NCBI RefSeq assembly: GCF_003096675.1
Contig: NZ_QEKW01000008.1
Span: forward strand, 62,001 to 126,000
Reading direction: 5' to 3'
DNA length: 64,000 nt
Origin: Actinomycetospora cinnamomea
Lineage (GTDB): Bacteria > Actinomycetota > Actinomycetes > Mycobacteriales > Pseudonocardiaceae
Made by a program: the position numbers and the translations under genes. The stretch's first letter is position 1; each line of letters opens with the position of its first letter. The notes under the pieces are model-generated. The model had not been told where the DNA came from, ran no database searches, and was given only the letters and a program-made list of their open reading frames with translations. This document shows positions 53,691 to 61,992 of the stretch, one piece after another.

Positions 53691-53771
53691 GCACACGGGG
53701 GTGTGCGAGCAATGCGGCTTTCCTGGCGTTGAACGCCAGGATCGCCACATCCTCGCCGTCGCGACACGCCG
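53691..53771 (+). repeat. 80-bp palindromic element, copy A
   Basis: It contains two hairpins: GCACACGG...GTGTGC at the outer end and the palindrome CTGGCGTTGAACGCCAG at 53723-53739. The conserved core CGAGCAATGCGGCTTT lies between them, then CACATCCTC, then CGACACGCCG at the inner end. It lies in the divergent promoter gap between adnA and the alkyltransferase-like gene and is inverted relative to copy B. Confidence 0.85.
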
Positions 53772-54208: not shown

Positions 54209-54288
54209 CGGCGTGTCGCGCGAATGAGGATGTGGCGATCCTGGCGTTGAACGCCAGCAAAGCCGCATTGCTCGCACACCCCGTGTGC
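54209..54288 (-). repeat. 80-bp palindromic element, copy B
   Basis: It is the reverse complement of the copy A layout: CGGCGTGTCG at the inner end, GAGGATGTGG, the palindrome CTGGCGTTGAACGCCAG at 54241-54257, AAAGCCGCATTGCTCG, and GCACACCCCGTGTGC at the outer end. It lies between the convergent alkyltransferase-like and glycosyltransferase genes, so its hairpins may also terminate both. Confidence 0.85.
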
Positions 54289-54335: not shown

Positions 54336-55466
54336 TCACGCGCCCGGAGCCCCGCGGCGGTAGAGCGCCAGGTGAGCGCGGGCCGCGGCGTCCCAGGTGT
54401 GGGCGGCGGCGAGGGCCCGGCCGACGGTGGCGTGGGCCGGGTCGCGCTCGGGGTCGCCACCGACACCACCGCCGTCGAGCACGCGCGCGATCTGCTCGGC
54501 GAACCCCGCCGGCCCCTCCGCGAACCGCGCCGCGCCGCCGAAGACCTCGCGCAGCACCGGCAGGTCCCGCGTCACGAGTGGCACGCCCGCGGCCAGCGCC
54601 TCCATCGCCGCCAGCCCGAAGCCCTCCTTGGTCGACGGGAACGCGAACACCGCCGCGCCCGCCACGAGCCCCGGCAGCTCCACGTCGTCCACGGGCCCGA
54701 GCACCACCGGCTCGACGCGCAGCGCCGCGGCGCGCGCGAACACCTCGTCGCGATAGCCCCGGTAGTCGAACAGCGTGTCCCCGCCCGCCAGGAGCAGCGG
54801 CACCTCGGGACGCCCCAGCACCGCCATCGCCTCGACCAGCTCGAGCGTCCCCTTGCGCGGCTCGATCCCGCCGACGGCGAGCACGTAGCGCCCGTACCGC
54901 GCCCGCCACGGCTCCCCCGCCCCCGACGCGGCCGCGTCCGCGAACCGCGCGGCGTCCACCCCGTTCGCGATCACCGTCGCCGCGCGTCCCCAGCCCGACC
55001 GCACCTCGCCCGCCACCGCCGCCGACACGCACACCAGCCCGCCGGGCAGGGCGATCGCGCGCTCGTGGCACGCCGCGAGCTCGGGGGTGGTGAACGCGTC
55101 GACGTGGTGCACGGTCCGCCACAGCCCGGCGTAGCCCCGCGCCCGCCCCACCGCGTTCGCCGTCAGGCAGTCCTGCGCGTGCACCACGTCGTAGGGGAGG
55201 GCGGGGGAAGCACCGAACGCCGCGGCCAGCAACGAGATCGACCGCAGGATCCGCTCCCCCACCGCCTCGCCGTCGACCTCCGGCACCGCGACCAGCCGCA
55301 CGTCCACGTCGGCGGAGACCGGCCGGAAGAACCCCGTGTCGCCGCCGCGGGCCAGCGCCCACACGGTCACGTCGTGGCCCGCCCGTGCGAACGCCTCGGC
55401 CAGCGCGAGGGTGTGCACGACCCCGCCGCGCGGCTTCGTCGAGTACGTCAGCAGCGCGATCCGCAT
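54336..55466 (-). CDS. GT4-type glycosyltransferase of the Nit1C cluster (MSMEG_0565-like)
   Basis: This 376-residue glycosyltransferase has two Rossmann domains. RIALLTYSTKPRGGVVHTLALAEAFA opens the acceptor half, and the donor half holds LAVGGIEPRKGTLELVEA and FAFPSTKEGFGLAAMEALAAGVPLV (the E-x7-E pattern). The opening and the strict link to nitrilase, radical SAM and AIR-synthase-like genes match the MSMEG_0565 family. It is the last gene of a six-gene operon, starting 2 bp after the stop of the nitrilase paralogue. What it glycosylates is unknown. Confidence 0.87.
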   Translation of the reverse strand: MRIALLTYSTKPRGGVVHTLALAEAFARAGHDVTVWALARGGDTGFFRPVSADVDVRLVAVPEVDGEAVGERILRSISLLAAAFGASPALPYDVVHAQDCLTANAVGRARGYAGLWRTVHHVDAFTTPELAACHERAIALPGGLVCVSAAVAGEVRSGWGRAATVIANGVDAARFADAAASGAGEPWRARYGRYVLAVGGIEPRKGTLELVEAMAVLGRPEVPLLLAGGDTLFDYRGYRDEVFARAAALRVEPVVLGPVDDVELPGLVAGAAVFAFPSTKEGFGLAAMEALAAGVPLVTRDLPVLREVFGGAARFAEGPAGFAEQIARVLDGGGVGGDPERDPAHATVGRALAAAHTWDAAARAHLALYRRGAPGA

Positions 55467-55467
55467 G

Positions 55468-56313
55468 TCAGGACCCGTAGGCCTCGGGGCGGCGCTCGGC
55501 GAGGTGGTGCAGCACCCCGCGGGCGGCGCCCACGACGCCGGGCAGGTCGACCTCGGCCACGGCGAGCCCGCCCTTCGACCACGTCCGCGCCAGGATCTCC
55601 CCGCCGGGGCCGACGACCTTCGCCCGGCCGAGGAAGTGCAGCGCGCCGTGGCGCCCGCTCTGGTTCGCCGACAGCCACACGACCTGGTTCTCGGCGGCCC
55701 GCGCCTGGTCGTAGAGGTCGAACAACCGCGCCTGGCGGTCCTGCGCCATGCGCGGCGCCCGGTTGGTCAGCGACGTCGGCCACGCCGACAGGCAGGCGAT
55801 GAGCTCCGCGCCGTCGAGCGCGAGCGTCCGCGGCGCCTCCGGGAACGTCTTGTCGTGGTCGATGAGCAGGCCCATCCGCCCCGCGGGGGTGTCGAACGCG
55901 CGGAACGCGTCGCCGGGCGCGAAGAGGGGCGCGATGCCGGCCGGGAGGTGGACCTTGCGGTGCCGGCCCAGGATGCCGTCGCCGGACAGGCACACCGCGG
56001 CGTCGTAGCGCACCGGCGCCCCGTCGGCGGGCCCGGCGTCCCGCCCGCGCTCGCTGTAGCCGAGACAGACGACCATCTCGCCGGCGATGTCGATCACCGA
56101 ACGGACCTCGTCGCCGTTGGGGTCGAGCAGCGGCGGCAGGCACGTCTCGTCGGGGTGGCGCAGGTCGGTGAGGTAGCCCCCCAGCGCCCCGTCGGGCAGC
56201 GCGAGCACCGCCACCCCGGCGTCCCGCGCGTGCGAGACGATCATCTTGATGCGGTCGAGGTCGAACCCGATGTCGCGGGTGAAGTGGGCCGCGGCGGCGG
56301 CGAGGCGGACCAC
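55468..56313 (-). CDS. nitrilase-superfamily paralogue without catalytic Cys and Glu
   Basis: This 281-residue carbon-nitrogen hydrolase fold is closely related to the gene just upstream. The triad is broken: Glu is D41 (LALPDGALGG), Lys is kept at K120 (GRHRKVHLP), and Cys is D152 (LLIDHDKTFPE in place of VICYDKAFPE). The second Glu region after the Lys is also changed. The rest of the fold, including ACLSAWPTSLTNRAP and QVVWLSANQSGRHG, is well kept with no frameshift, so it is selected as a protein. A regulatory or structural partner of the active nitrilase is the likeliest role (inference). A GTG start fits. Confidence 0.85.
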   Translation of the reverse strand: MVRLAAAAAHFTRDIGFDLDRIKMIVSHARDAGVAVLALPDGALGGYLTDLRHPDETCLPPLLDPNGDEVRSVIDIAGEMVVCLGYSERGRDAGPADGAPVRYDAAVCLSGDGILGRHRKVHLPAGIAPLFAPGDAFRAFDTPAGRMGLLIDHDKTFPEAPRTLALDGAELIACLSAWPTSLTNRAPRMAQDRQARLFDLYDQARAAENQVVWLSANQSGRHGALHFLGRAKVVGPGGEILARTWSKGGLAVAEVDLPGVVGAARGVLHHLAERRPEAYGS

Positions 56314-56323
56314 CCGCGAGCCC

Positions 56324-57199
56324 CTAGCCGGCCCGCGCCGGGAGGGGCAGCGCGGCGTACGACGCGGGGCGCCGGTCGCGCAGGTGGCCCATGACCCGCC
56401 GCGCCCGGTCCACCGCGTCGTCGACGTCCACCGACGCGACGGCCAGGCCCGCCTCGGTGCCGGTGGTGGCGAGCACCTCCCCGCCCGGGTCGACGACCTT
56501 GGCGCTGGCCACCAGCCGCATGTCGCCGAACGTCCCGGCCTGGTTCGCCGACACCCAGACGATCTGGTTCTCCAGCGCGCGGGCGCGGTCGAACAGGTCG
56601 AAGCGGCGGGTCCAGCGGTCGTCGGCGAGCACCGGCGCGGGGTCGGTGCGCGACGCGGGCCAGGCCGACAGGCAGACCACGACGCGGGCCCCGTCGACGG
56701 CCAGCGCGCGGGCGGCCTCGGGGAAGGCCTTGTCGTAGCAGATCACCATGCCCAGCCGGCCGATCGGCGTGTCGAACGCGGTGAACCGGTCGCCCGCGGC
56801 GTACGAGGTGTTCTCGTTGAGCGGCTGGTGGACCTTGCGGTGGTGCCCGAGCACGCCGTCGCCGGTCACGGCCACGGCGCTGTTGTAGGGCCGGTACCCC
56901 GACGCCGCGTCCCCGCGCTCGCAGAACCCCGCGGTGACGACCAGGTCCCCGGCCAGGGCGACCAGACGGGCCACCTCCGGCCCGTCGACCTCGAGCTGTG
57001 GTGGCACGTCCGCCGGATCGTTCATGGCCGGGTCGTCGTGCAGCGACGACAGGTACCCGCCGAGCGCGGCCTCGGGCAGGGCCAGCAGGTCGGCGCCCGC
57101 CGCCCGGGCCCGGCTGATCAGCGACGCGATCGTCGCGAAGTCCTCGTCGAGGTCGCGGCCGAAGCCCGCGGCCGCGGCGGCGAACGTCCTGAGGGTCAT
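56324..57199 (-). CDS. nitrilase of the Nit1C cluster
   Basis: This 291-residue carbon-nitrogen hydrolase has a complete Glu-Lys-Cys triad: E43 (LALPEAALGGYL), K122 (GHHRKVHQP) and C154 (GMVICYDKAFPE). It hydrolyses a nitrile or amide bond; the natural substrate in this cluster is not established. In pseudomonads the Nit1C cluster is known to be needed for growth on cyanide as nitrogen source. The ATG overlaps the upstream stop (ATGA, 57196-57199), so it is coupled to the GNAT-AIR protein. The catalytically dead paralogue follows after 10 bp. Confidence 0.9.
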   Translation of the reverse strand: MTLRTFAAAAAGFGRDLDEDFATIASLISRARAAGADLLALPEAALGGYLSSLHDDPAMNDPADVPPQLEVDGPEVARLVALAGDLVVTAGFCERGDAASGYRPYNSAVAVTGDGVLGHHRKVHQPLNENTSYAAGDRFTAFDTPIGRLGMVICYDKAFPEAARALAVDGARVVVCLSAWPASRTDPAPVLADDRWTRRFDLFDRARALENQIVWVSANQAGTFGDMRLVASAKVVDPGGEVLATTGTEAGLAVASVDVDDAVDRARRVMGHLRDRRPASYAALPLPARAG

Positions 57200-58713
57200 G
57201 GGTTCCCTTCCGTCCGAGGTGCCCTGCCGAGCCCGGTCACGCCACCGGAGATCGCCTCGGTGACCTCGCCGTCGGGCCAGCGCAGGGCCACCCCGGCGGT
57301 CCCGGTGAGCTCCCCGCACACCGCGCTCGTCGCCGGGCCCGCCGACGGCGCGGGCGCGCCGGGCTCGTCGGCGGTGAGCAGCCCGAAGCCGGGGAAGCAG
57401 GTCAGCCAATCGGCGACGCTCGCCCCGACCGGTCGCGGGACGGCGGCGACGTCGAGCACCGCGCCGGTGCCCGAGGCCTCGGCGAGCATCCCGAGCGTCC
57501 CGACGACACCGGCCATCGACACGTCCTTGGCCGCGGCCGGGCGGTGGGCCGCGTCGGGCCCGATCGCGGCGACCATCGCGCGCAGGTCGGCGGGCGCGCG
57601 CGTCGAGGTCGAGTCCCACTGGCGGCCGGTGTAGCCCGGGCGCCAGGTGCCACCGAGGTCGGCGGTGAGGCGCACGGCCATCCCGGGCCGCCCGCCCGCG
57701 GCGGGGACGGGCCGCCGGGACGCGGGGCCCGCCGCAGCCGGACCCGTCGGCGTGGTCCGCCCGAGCGCGGTGATCGCGAGCGACGCCGGCACCTCGAGCT
57801 GGGTGTGCCCCCCGATCACCGGCACCCCGTAGGCGTCGGCGGCGGCACGCACGCCGGTGAGCACGCGGTGGGCGAAGGAGGCGTCGCGCGCGCCGACGGC
57901 GTCGAGCAGCGCGACCGGCGCGGCGCCCATCGCCGCGAGGTCGTTGACGTTGACGAGCACGCCGCACCACCCGGCCCACTCGGGGTCGCGCTCGACCATC
58001 GCGGGCAGGACCGCGTCGCACGCGGCGACCACGTCGCTGCCGGGCACCGGCGCGCCGTCGTCGCCGAGGTGCACGCCGGAGCCGGCCAGGCCCACGACGA
58101 GCTCGCCGAGCGGGGCCTTGGTTGCCGCCACGAGGTCGGCGACGCGGCCCACCGGCCAGCGCATCCGGACGTGCGGCCGGCCGGCGACCGTCGTCGCGCG
58201 GACCCGCTGCCAGCCCAGACGGCGGAAGAGGCTCTCGTTGGCGGCCTGGACGTCGGCCTCGAAGCGCAGGACGCCGGCGGCCTCGGCGCGGGCGCAGGCG
58301 GCGCGCACGAGGGCCGCGCCGACACGCGTCCCGGCGCGTCGCCGGGCCGTCGGGGCGACGACGAGGCGGCTGCCGGCCCACCAGCCGAGGTCGTTCCGGG
58401 AGGCGTCGGGGTCGGCGGGCGCGAGGCGCACCCCGCCGAGCACCGCGCCGGCGGCGTCCCGGGCGACGAGCACGACGGCCCGCGGGTCGTGGTCGTGCTC
58501 GTCGAGGTCGCCGACCGGGTCGTCGCGGAACAGGGCCTGCTCGTCGACGAACACCGCGCGGCGCAGGGCCCGGTGCGCGCGCACGTCGGGGTGACGCGCG
58601 TCGACGGCCGGCGCCTCGGCGATCGTCACGTCGCGGGTGGGGCGGCGCGCCCGCCCACCGAGGATCTCGTCGGCGGCACCCAACGCGACGGTGTGATCGT
58701 CGAGGAGCGGCAC
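57196..58713 (-). CDS. GNAT acetyltransferase fused to AIR synthase-like domain (MSMEG_0567/Sll0787 type)
   Basis: This 505-residue fusion has a GNAT domain at residues about 35-190 (HRALRRAVFVDEQALF, GSRLVVAPTARRRAGTRVGAALVRAA). A PurM/AIR-synthase fold follows at about 195-505 (GWCGVLVNVNDLAAMGAAPVALLD, GVPVIGGHTQLEVPASLAITALG, AAKDVSMAGVVGTLGMLAEASG). In many Nit1C clusters these are separate or fused in this same order. PurM-type domains bind ATP and activate a carbonyl oxygen, so the protein may build or modify a small nitrogen metabolite. The GTG at 58713 overlaps the radical SAM stop region by 3 bases out of frame. Confidence 0.85.
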   Translation of the reverse strand: MPLLDDHTVALGAADEILGGRARRPTRDVTIAEAPAVDARHPDVRAHRALRRAVFVDEQALFRDDPVGDLDEHDHDPRAVVLVARDAAGAVLGGVRLAPADPDASRNDLGWWAGSRLVVAPTARRRAGTRVGAALVRAACARAEAAGVLRFEADVQAANESLFRRLGWQRVRATTVAGRPHVRMRWPVGRVADLVAATKAPLGELVVGLAGSGVHLGDDGAPVPGSDVVAACDAVLPAMVERDPEWAGWCGVLVNVNDLAAMGAAPVALLDAVGARDASFAHRVLTGVRAAADAYGVPVIGGHTQLEVPASLAITALGRTTPTGPAAAGPASRRPVPAAGGRPGMAVRLTADLGGTWRPGYTGRQWDSTSTRAPADLRAMVAAIGPDAAHRPAAAKDVSMAGVVGTLGMLAEASGTGAVLDVAAVPRPVGASVADWLTCFPGFGLLTADEPGAPAPSAGPATSAVCGELTGTAGVALRWPDGEVTEAISGGVTGLGRAPRTEGNP

Positions 58714-58718
58714 CGCGG

Positions 58719-59858
58719 TCAGCCCCCCGCCGCGGACAGCGCCGAGCACGCGCCGCACGCCGCGCAGCCGGCGGCCTGGTCGGCGCCGCGCATGCCGGCG
58801 GCCTGCAGGACCTTCGCGACGCGGGCGGTGACCTCGGCGAGCAGCTCGGGGTCGGGCGCGGGGTCGCCGTCGGCGAACGCGAGCGTGCCGGGGATCGGGC
58901 GGTAGGGCACGACGAAGGGGTAGACGCCGCGGTCGACGAGGTCGGCGGCGCCCGCGACCAGCTCGTCGGGGTCCTCGCCGAGACCGACGATGAGGTAGGT
59001 GGAGACGGCGTTCGGGCCGAAGAGGCGCACGCTCTCGTCCCACGCGAGCCGGTACTGGCTCAGGGGCACGGTGGCCTTGCCCGGCATCCACCGGGCGCGC
59101 ACGGCGTCGTCGAGCGACTCGACGTGGATGCCGATGGCGTCGGCGCCGGCCTCCCGCAGCTCGTGCAGGACGGCGAGGTCGGACGGGGCGGGCGGCTCGC
59201 ACTGCACCTGGACGGGCAGTCCGGGCACCGCGACCTTGATCGCGCGCACGCACCGGGCGAGGTGGCGGGCGCCGCGGTCCCGACCGTGCGAGGTGCCGGT
59301 GGTCAGCACCATCTGCCGCACGCCGTCGAGGCGCACCGCGGCCTCGGCGACCTCGGCGAGCTGCTCGGGGGTCTTCACCGCGGTGGTGGCGCCGCTGCGC
59401 AGCGACTGCTCGATGGCGCAGAAGCGGCAACGGTCCTGTTCGCCGTAGCGCACGCAGGTCTGCACGACCGTCGTCGCGAGCACGTCGTCCCCGTGCAGGC
59501 GCGCGATCTTCGCGTAGGGGACGCCGTCGGCGGTGGTGAGGTCGTAGAACGCAGGGCGCCCGATGGTGGCGACCTCGACGCCGAGGTCGGTGACGCCGCC
59601 GTCGGGGCCGGTGCGCACCAGGCGGCCGTCGCGCAGGCGGTAGGGGCTCGCCGGGTCGATCGGGATCGTGGTCCTGAGGCCGTCGACGAGGACGTGGCCG
59701 TCGGCGGACGGTCCGGCCCCGCCGGGGCGGCGCAGGGGGATGGTGGCGCCGAGGTCGACGGGGCCGGTGCCCGCCGTGTCGGGGAGGTCGAGCGCGACGC
59801 CGCGGACGGCCACTGCGGAGCGGGCGGACAACCCGAGGTCGGGTTGGGGGGACGACAT
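58719..59858 (-). CDS. radical SAM protein of the Nit1C cluster (MSMEG_0568-like)
   Basis: This 379-residue radical SAM enzyme has C135, C144 and C147 in a C-x8-C-x2-C spacing instead of the common C-x3-C-x2-C, a biotin-synthase-like relative pattern that is typical of this family. IGIHVESLDDAVRARWMPGK lies in the barrel. C365, C368 and C371 (GCAACGAC) at the C-terminus could bind a second Fe-S cluster. The ATG at 59858 follows AGGAGGT at 6 nt, one of the best ribosome binding sites in the window. It is the second gene of the operon. Confidence 0.88.
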   Translation of the reverse strand: MSSPQPDLGLSARSAVAVRGVALDLPDTAGTGPVDLGATIPLRRPGGAGPSADGHVLVDGLRTTIPIDPASPYRLRDGRLVRTGPDGGVTDLGVEVATIGRPAFYDLTTADGVPYAKIARLHGDDVLATTVVQTCVRYGEQDRCRFCAIEQSLRSGATTAVKTPEQLAEVAEAAVRLDGVRQMVLTTGTSHGRDRGARHLARCVRAIKVAVPGLPVQVQCEPPAPSDLAVLHELREAGADAIGIHVESLDDAVRARWMPGKATVPLSQYRLAWDESVRLFGPNAVSTYLIVGLGEDPDELVAGAADLVDRGVYPFVVPYRPIPGTLAFADGDPAPDPELLAEVTARVAKVLQAAGMRGADQAAGCAACGACSALSAAGG

Positions 59859-59938
59859 CAGCGGACCTCCTGGGCGCTCGACTCGGGCGTCGCGGGCGGG
59901 GTGCGGTGTCGGTGCGGCCCGCACCCCCGCCGGGCGCG

Positions 59939-60457
59939 TCAGAGCTGGTAGGTCGAGTTGATGATCGCGCCCTTGCGGGCGTAGTGGATGAGCGCGTCCT
60001 GGACGTCGAGCGGGTGGGTCGGGATGACACCGGAGATGAGGTCCTCCTCCCGGGCGCCGTGCAACGACAGCCCGAAGCGGCAGCAGTAGACCTTGCCGCC
60101 CTCGCCCATGAACGTCTTGAGCTGGTCGTTGATGTTGTGCTCGCCGGGGAACGCGGAGGTGCCCGTGGTGGGGAAGCCGCGCGTGGCCAGGCAGTTCAGC
60201 GAGCCCGGGCCGTAGAAGTACATCGCCGACTCGAAGCCCTTGCGCAGCGCGCGCGTGGCCTGGAGGACGGCGACGAAGCTGACCGACGACTCGTGGGCGA
60301 TGCCGTGGACGAGGGTGAAGTAGGCCTCGCCGTTCTCCGCCTGCAGGTCGGGGAAGACCTTCGTGCCGCCGTAGATGCTCGACCCCTCGGGCAGCGAGGG
60401 GTGCGGGATCTCCTCGAGGCTCTTCTTCTCGACGTCGGAGAGCTCGGTGCTGGTCAT
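59939..60457 (-). CDS. MSMEG_0572/Sll0783-family nitrogen-starvation protein
   Basis: This 172-residue protein is the first gene of the Nit1C-type operon. It belongs to the family that marks this cluster in mycobacteria and cyanobacteria. Its blocks are SSIYGGTKVFPDLQAENGEAYFTLVHG, FYGPGSLNCLATRGFPTTG and KVYCCRFGLSLHG. The fold resembles DsrE-like proteins by eye, with Cys residues in YCCRFG and LNCLA that may be reactive. Its function is unknown. The ATG at 60457 follows GGGAGAAC by 6 nt. A GlnR-like site lies about 190 bp upstream. Confidence 0.87.
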   Translation of the reverse strand: MTSTELSDVEKKSLEEIPHPSLPEGSSIYGGTKVFPDLQAENGEAYFTLVHGIAHESSVSFVAVLQATRALRKGFESAMYFYGPGSLNCLATRGFPTTGTSAFPGEHNINDQLKTFMGEGGKVYCCRFGLSLHGAREEDLISGVIPTHPLDVQDALIHYARKGAIINSTYQL

Positions 60458-60556
60458 GCTGGTGTTCTCCCTCGGGGACGCGGGGTGGAGCGGCCTCGGC
60501 ACCCGACGCCGGCCGGGTACGAGGTGAACTCGGGGATGCGCTGCCGGCCGCGTGAT

Positions 60557-60646: not shown

Positions 60647-60662
60647 GTTTCACGGCGGTGAC
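60647..60662 (-). promoter_or_regulatory. GlnR-like binding motif upstream of the Nit1C-type operon
   Basis: Read leftward, GTCACCGCCGTGAAAC fits the actinobacterial GlnR half-operator gTnAc-n6-GaAAc exactly. A second, imperfect copy (GTCAC-n3-GAAAC, followed by n6-GCAAC) lies at 60595-60618. GlnR activates nitrogen-scavenging genes under nitrogen limitation, which fits this operon. Confidence 0.45.
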
Positions 60663-60700: not shown

Positions 60701-60780
60701 GAACACGGGGTGTTCGAGCAATGCGGCTTTGCTGGCGTCCAACACCAGGATCACCACATCCTCGTCGCGACGACACGCCG
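60701..60780 (+). repeat. 80-bp palindromic element, copy C
   Basis: It has the same layout and orientation as copy A: GAACACGGGGTGTTCGAGC outer hairpin, AATGCGGCTTTGCTGG core, a weaker central palindrome (CTGGCGTCCAACACCAG), CACATCCTC, and CGACACGCCG as inner end. It lies in a divergent promoter gap, like copy A. Confidence 0.85.
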
Positions 60781-61929: not shown

Positions 61930-61992
61930 GAGGATGTGGCGTTCCTGGCGTTGGACGCCAGCAAAGCCGCATTGCTCGCACACCCCGTGTGC
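61930..61992 (-). repeat. palindromic element, copy D (lacks the inner end)
   Basis: It is the reverse orientation of copy C: GAGGATGTGG, palindrome CTGGCGTTGGACGCCAG at 61945-61961 (one mismatch), AAAGCCGCATTGCTCG, then GCACACCCCGTGTGC. The CGGCGTGTCG inner end is missing, probably replaced by coding sequence. It lies between convergent genes and can act as a terminator. Confidence 0.85.

Follow-up and report, generated by a model that had tools for sequence, protein, structure and literature searches.

Enzymes of the nitrilase superfamily are known by a Glu-Lys-Cys triad. Two described kinds of cluster are close to the one that contains the gene pair considered here, namely the MSMEG_0565–0572 ("gpr") operon of Mycobacterium smegmatis and the Nit1C clusters. 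According to the available portions of the report on the former, the operon is induced by GlnR, its expression restored peroxide resistance in a glnR mutant, and deleting it reduced NADPH/NADP and biofilm growth, especially at low nitrogen; single genes complementing the deletion were sought, and none was found (PMC6039565). The same portions call MSMEG_0566 a putative aliphatic amidase and a possible contributor to nitrogen assimilation, and suggest selenocysteine read-through of MSMEG_0571 into MSMEG_0569 (PMC6039565). Some Nit1C clusters, as described in the accessible parts of the literature, also contain a glycosyltransferase (PMC1199592, PMC11049912).

In the window—that is, the whole stretch of 64,000 nucleotides that was analyzed—six consecutive minus-strand genes stand in the order MSMEG_0572-type gene, MSMEG_0568-type radical SAM gene, MSMEG_0567-type fusion, two genes for C-N hydrolase-fold proteins (referred to here as the EKC and DKD copies), and MSMEG_0565-type glycosyltransferase gene (Table 1). 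The ATG of the EKC gene and the stop codon of the gene before it share bases (ATGA), the DKD gene starts 10 bases past the EKC stop, and the glycosyltransferase gene starts 1 base past the DKD stop, at a TGA-C-ATG junction.

Table 1. Features of the cluster, with positions in the window and scores against family models.
Feature	Position	Strand	Details
MSMEG_0565-family glycosyltransferase	54336..55466	-	TIGR04047 409.7 bits, cut-off 259.85
DKD copy (C-N hydrolase-fold paralogue, D41-K120-D152)	55468..56313	-	281 aa, GTG start
EKC copy (E43-K122-C154 and second Glu E129)	56324..57199	-	291 aa
MSMEG_0567-type fusion, GNAT part	57196..58719	-	TIGR04045 94.6 bits, cut-off 68.45; start approximate
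MSMEG_0567-type fusion, AIR-synthase-like part	within 57196..58719	-	TIGR04050 435.5 bits, cut-off 312.2
MSMEG_0568-family radical SAM protein	58719..59924	-	TIGR04043 490 bits, cut-off 303.7; scanned span 58722-59861
MSMEG_0572/Sll0783-family nitrogen-starvation protein	59939..60502	-	TIGR04044 249.1 bits, cut-off 109.85; likely ATG at 60457
GlnR-box-like half site GTCACCGCCGTGAAAC	60647..60662	-	predicted; upstream of cluster

The cluster is of the actinobacterial gpr type, and its families are the same as those listed for gpr in the available text, which are MSMEG_0572, 0568, 0567, and 0565 together with two C-N hydrolases (PMC6039565). The full gpr set is, however, not gathered in the window: 0572, 0568, 0567, EKC, DKD, and 0565 are present, whereas the flavoprotein MSMEG_0569 is encoded outside the cluster, on contig C24 of the genome, and there is no room for MSMEG_0570 between the six genes. 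The EKC and DKD genes are adjacent in the window but apart in the gpr gene order, which at two other loci (L115 and L137) reads 0572, EKC, 0570, 0569, 0568, 0567, DKD, 0565; by this order, MSMEG_0571 should be the EKC copy and MSMEG_0566 the DKD copy. If so, the amidase role of MSMEG_0566 in nitrogen assimilation would be doubtful, and a missing Cys in that protein is not mentioned in the available gpr literature (PMC6039565). In the Rhodococcus plasmid pLP1 (L183:4489-6984), EKC, MSMEG_0570, and MSMEG_0569 are separate annotated genes, which, together with the succession of EKC and DKD without 0569 in the window, argues against a general selenocysteine read-through.

GlnR control is reported for gpr in the accessible text (PMC6039565), and a GlnR-type half box is predicted upstream of the cluster in the window. 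The pattern has one match in the window, compared with a mean of 0.08 in shuffled sequences. It was built on what we take to be the GlnR-box consensus. Of the 12 named Actinomycetospora loci that have an MSMEG_0572 gene, six show it between −186 and −225, and the overall count is 9 of 116 loci. In addition, a 27-base element occurs four times in the window (53707-53733, 54247-54273, 60716-60742, and 61951-61977) with at most three mismatches, and in none of 100 shuffles; it is a dispersed repeat.

Radical SAM, GNAT, AIR-synthase-like, and MSMEG_0572/Sll0783-type relatives are common to the window and to Nit1C clusters as these are described in the accessible texts (PMC1199592, PMC11049912), with the models TIGR04043, TIGR04045, TIGR04050, and TIGR04044 over their cut-offs in the window and the sll0787-type AIR model TIGR04049 below its own (180.3 vs 321.3). 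The Nit1C subfamily-1 nitrilase, by contrast, is missing from the cluster. Against the model of that family, TIGR04048, the EKC copy scores 24.7 bits where the cut-off is 502.6, and a search of the genome with it gave no match at E ≤ 1e-10; the EKC copy was therefore rejected as a nitrilase of the Nit6803/NitC family. Thus, the preliminary description, which had spoken of a nitrilase pair in a Nit1C cluster, was right about the superfamily (PF00795) and inexact about the family and the cluster, which is a related MSMEG_0565–0572 type with a different C-N hydrolase. At nine loci with another radical SAM type (L112, L122, L123, and L125-L130), no EKC- or DKD-type copy was found. The genome of the window has a second cluster on contig C12 (L112:2837-10590 and L182:8654-9616), containing MSMEG_0572, 0568 radical SAM, and 0565 relatives, with genes for the two subunits of nitrile hydratase directly after 0572 (alpha, 285.2 bits, cut-off 249.85; beta, 150.3 bits, cut-off 152.2) and an AIR-like gene of the sll0787 family about 10 kb away (252.7 bits, cut-off 321.3).

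Direct reading of the residues bore out what had been noted of the two copies: EKC has the complete triad E43, K122, and C154 (ICYDKAFPE), and DKD has D41, K120, and D152 (IDHDKTFPE) in place of Glu, Lys, and Cys. The copies are 49% identical over 273 aligned positions. Both belong to the C-N hydrolase superfamily by sequence and fold, scoring 132.4 (EKC) and 98.7 bits (DKD) against PF00795 (cut-off 23.2), with CN_hydrolase as the only Pfam domain in the window's DKD copy. That DKD had kept its fold and reading frame likewise held up, its frame having no internal stop and its AlphaFold2 model a mean pLDDT of 90.4 (EKC, 88.2). In Foldseek searches, both models gave a probability of 1.00 and query TM-scores of about 0.70-0.83 among the 50 matches listed for each, the best solved matches being amidases, N-carbamoyl amidases, and a Pyrococcus nitrilase. 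N-carbamoylputrescine amidase, N-carbamoyl-D-amino-acid amidase, and the Pyrococcus amidase (5h8i, 1uf4, and 6ypa) share the fold with both copies at 22-27% identity, but their Glu-Lys-Cys triad is present in EKC and absent from DKD. Thus, DKD is a superfamily homologue by fold and not an enzyme of the EKC kind, and the missing Cys suggests that amidase/nitrilase activity has been lost. No PDB sequence matched the DKD-clade profile at E ≤ 1e-30, so there is no close solved structure; the best single-sequence match was 3ivz (1.8e-18). A sequencing or frame artefact was rejected because the frames are open and the same state recurs in many genomes, and a known defence gene because neither copy had a PADLOC match at E ≤ 0.001.

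Within Actinomycetospora, matches were found in 17 of 18 genomes, 16 of which have two copies; the two exceptions have a completeness of 59% and 84%. Scanning named genomes, from which the best 80 of 101 relatives (60-90% identity) were taken, extended the distribution to Pseudonocardia, Amycolatopsis, Nocardioides, Aeromicrobium, Modestobacter, and others. An EKC copy is also present at 75 of these 80 loci, always with Lys and Cys and, apart from one incomplete copy, with Glu. At the other five (L040, L063, L087, L097, and L107), no EKC copy was found in the fetched stretch; in the L087 genome it lies on another contig than DKD, and no close EKC copy was found in the L040 and L097 metagenome-assembled genomes, the latter having one 40% match. 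The L040 contig, from an Actinomycetospora (L040:6767-7810), carries a DKD copy with Lys120 replaced by Gln and no matches to other cluster genes, perhaps a relic or an assembly effect.

Because the scan used six peptide patterns including DHDKTFPE, and so leans towards DKD, a second sample free of that lean was drawn with TIGR04050. Among 394 genomes of the class, this model found 48 places above its cut-off in 47 genomes. Counting the window, 31 places have both copies, 14 have EKC alone, and three have neither, two of these being on short contigs or contig ends and one a partial second cluster. Whole-genome searches of the 16 genomes lacking DKD gave a single match per genome, in every case a CYDK copy; by genome, therefore, both copies occur in 31, EKC alone in 16, and DKD alone in none of the 47. 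EKC thus does not need DKD everywhere. In an evenly drawn sample of the phylum, 9 of 396 genomes matched at E ≤ 1e-40, with a DKD copy in five of the nine, and presence or absence of DKD on the EKC-copy tree requires four changes. There are also signs that the two genes travel between genomes together. In the tree, Pseudonocardia CNS-004 sits with Geodermatophilaceae for EKC and again for DKD, and DKD has matches of 57.6-58.4% identity in four Rhodococcus plasmid records. One of these is R. qingshengii pLP1 (L108, L183), in which the DKD residues were read, all eight genes are annotated, and the pair consists of WP_231783813.1 and WP_231783810.1; identity is 31-33% in five further plasmid records.

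The replacement of the nucleophile is uniform. All 81 DKD-type copies from the 80 named loci and the window have Asp in place of Cys, 80 retain Lys, and 80 have Asp in place of Glu; in the overlapping set of 105 paired loci, Asp at the Cys position and Lys are found in every DKD copy, just as the full triad is found in every EKC copy (105/105). The Glu position is D in 97, G in six, H in one, and Q in one of these DKD copies, which means that the fixed feature is Asp at the nucleophile together with Lys rather than a mirror image of the triad. Of the 105 DKD copies, 87 retain the second catalytic Glu; the copy in the window has Ile there. DKD has as many columns with an invariance of 99% or more as EKC (73), and the KVH, SAWP, and DxxRA motifs, which presumably line the pocket, are conserved in both clades. 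Several records are likely to be the same (L111/L147, L091/L156, L075/L157, L104/L159, and L086/L162), so the 105 paired sets stand for fewer than 105 species. The set used for conservation and dN/dS leaves out L147, single-copy loci, and short stretches, its copies being cut at their tblastn ends.

A quick-type tree of 112 copies, with four EKC-type copies that do not belong to the cluster as its root, places the 46 DKD copies together in a single clade (SH-aLRT 99), next to the 62 EKC copies of the cluster (support 82). A tree in which the duplication follows the branching-off of the DKD-less family f43 was not rejected (p-AU 0.593), its log-likelihood being 5.37 above that of the free quick tree; the EKC clade is therefore not firm, and the duplication is not exactly dated. 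Dating by a tree, as the preliminary description had proposed, thus yielded the single DKD clade but not the date. For 194 genome pairs from the paired sets with dS of 0.05-0.5, dN/dS was 0.223 in DKD and 0.243 in EKC, and in two other dS bands 0.390 vs 0.421 and 0.240 vs 0.284; as these are Nei-Gojobori estimates on GC-rich genes, only the comparison between copies counts. When the window is taken together with 30 loci from the class and phylum samples, mean identity is 67.4% in DKD and 63.9% in EKC. DKD is more conserved than EKC in 355 of the 465 pairs of this set, and in 3718 of 5460 pairs of all 105 sets. DKD is therefore a maintained clade under purifying selection after loss of a catalytic residue, not a case of local decay, and a recent or decaying duplicate was rejected on its single clade, its dN/dS no higher than that of EKC, and its constant Asp. 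Two points of the preliminary description were tested in this way: the search it proposed for a co-occurring dead paralogue found one in 31 of 47 cluster genomes and never alone, and the decay it had envisaged—a copy found in this genome only, with relaxed rates—disagrees with these genomes, the 81 of 81 Asp, and the dN/dS values.

Ten sites are fixed at 90% or more within each clade of the paired set but differ between EKC and DKD: E43/D41, C154/D152, A158/T156, W196/Q194, R199/L197, F203/Y201, L209/A207, V230/L228, M270/L268, and D275/E273. Four of the ten, W196/Q194 to L209/A207 in this series, fall in a predicted helix at 193-209, where 4 of 11 sites conserved in both clades are diagnostic, compared with 6 of 75 elsewhere (hypergeometric p 0.021, post hoc and uncorrected). 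In cyanide dihydratase, according to the available part of the source, helices α5 and α6 form the A dimer surface and have been suggested to position the catalytic Cys (PMC4981594), and the underlying dimer is said, again in partial text, to be common to all known functional superfamily members (PMC4700190). With helix 193-209 equated with α6 by its order in the fold rather than by superposition, there appears to be a modest enrichment of diagnostic sites in the presumed dimer helix. A 12-member EKC clade lacking DKD showed no preferential change at the sites where DKD differs (3 of 12, vs 12 of 83 conserved sites; Fisher p 0.40); at first sight, F203, M270, W196, and C93 are more variable among the 16 unpaired EKC copies.

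The most constant neighbor of DKD is the glycosyltransferase gene, which adjoins it at 29 of 30 loci, followed by the flavoprotein (17), EKC (9), and MSMEG_0567 (4). At three Pseudonocardia loci (L064, L074, and L089), EKC and DKD stand side by side with MSMEG_0572, and no radical SAM, MSMEG_0567, or MSMEG_0565 match was found in the fetched stretches; the L064 flavoprotein ahead of the pair is TIGR04046, radical SAM relatives occur elsewhere in the L064 and L074 genomes, and none was found on searching the L089 genome. In two genera (g282 and g296) of family f92, the cluster lacks DKD and has a FAD-type protein between EKC and the glycosyltransferase (L144:10769-12322, L145:6016-7617, L167:10596-12527, and L172:10481-12280). 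The L144 protein, of 517 aa, was scanned with profiles, and TIGR04046 was absent among its best 25 NCBIfam matches; the other three were seen as frames.

Overall, DKD is tentatively regarded, with confidence a little short of even, as an old, selectively maintained pseudo-hydrolase that acts as a non-catalytic partner subunit of EKC. This reading draws on the invariant Asp, the single clade, the dN/dS values, the absence of DKD without EKC in 47 genomes, the helix sites, the confidently modeled fold, and the side-by-side EKC and DKD genes of the stripped Pseudonocardia loci. We infer that the two proteins are in physical contact and that DKD acts on EKC: DKD would pair through the A-surface (helices α5 and α6) of the superfamily, the D152-K120 pair may keep the empty pocket either fixed or occupied by a ligand, and the pocket so held might activate, shape, or gate the active EKC subunit, much as "prozyme" or ClpR-type dead subunits would suggest by analogy. 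Against this reading stand the lack of preferential change in unpaired EKC copies, EKC alone in 16 of 47 genomes, the five named loci without EKC in the fetched stretch, and the glycosyltransferase rather than EKC as the most constant neighbor. A bolder form, possible but held with real reserve, is that Cys was replaced by Asp once and that, in a mixed EKC–DKD complex, the Asp-Lys pocket gates EKC or uses Asp to carry out a new, second step on the nitrogen-starvation metabolite that EKC acts on.

The invariance of D152 and K120, the frequent second Glu, and the equal number of invariant columns would also suit a rebuilt enzyme, in which Asp152 and Lys120, often with that Glu, use Asp as a base or nucleophile on a pathway intermediate independently of EKC, whose involvement the position beside the glycosyltransferase would not require. 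For a working acid-base site, however, the variation at the Glu position is odd, the second Glu is replaced in 18 of 105 copies, that of the window included, and DKD is never without EKC in the 47-genome sample; this explanation is considered rather doubtful. Unlikely, too, is a ligand-binding sensor or carrier, whose old pocket would hold the pathway substrate or product with or without EKC contact: the conserved KVH, SAWP, and DxxRA motifs agree with it, and an Asp-Lys pair could hold an amine or carboxylate ligand, but no DNA-binding or signaling domain was found by Pfam in the window's DKD copy.

The adjacency to the glycosyltransferase and the TGA-C-ATG junction might instead point to a structural chaperone or scaffold for other operon proteins, the glycosyltransferase above all, yet DKD is kept at five loci whose fetched stretches gave no match to MSMEG_0565 (L041, L064, L074, L089, and L164) and the glycosyltransferase is kept without DKD at 14, which makes such a role improbable. 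Decay of a duplicate of the active gene can practically be discounted. The lost catalytic residues, the 16 of 47 cluster-bearing genomes that lack DKD, and the isolated L040 copy, which has lost Lys as well, are what decay would give; for the clade as a whole it is contradicted by the same replacement in 105 of 105 copies, the single clade, dN/dS values the same as or lower than those of EKC, and the confident fold.

The DKD copies break the Glu-Lys-Cys rule at a defined place, as a whole clade in which the nucleophile Cys has become Asp and whose conservation is no less strict than that of the active sister. The finding also bears on how the MSMEG_0565–0572 operon is read, because the gene in the DKD position is annotated there as an amidase possibly feeding nitrogen assimilation. 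The chemistry of the cluster is left open in the available parts of both gpr and Nit1C studies (PMC6039565, PMC1199592), and the EKC–DKD pair offers a direct way to test it. Among the papers listed in a survey of open-licence PMC text, no description of a pair of this type was found.

Pseudoenzyme-enzyme pairs are represented by trypanosome AdoMetDC-prozyme and by ClpP-ClpR. Like EKC and DKD, both combine a conserved dead paralogue with an active sister. They differ in having other folds and in that contact between the partners is established, whereas for EKC and DKD it is proposed.
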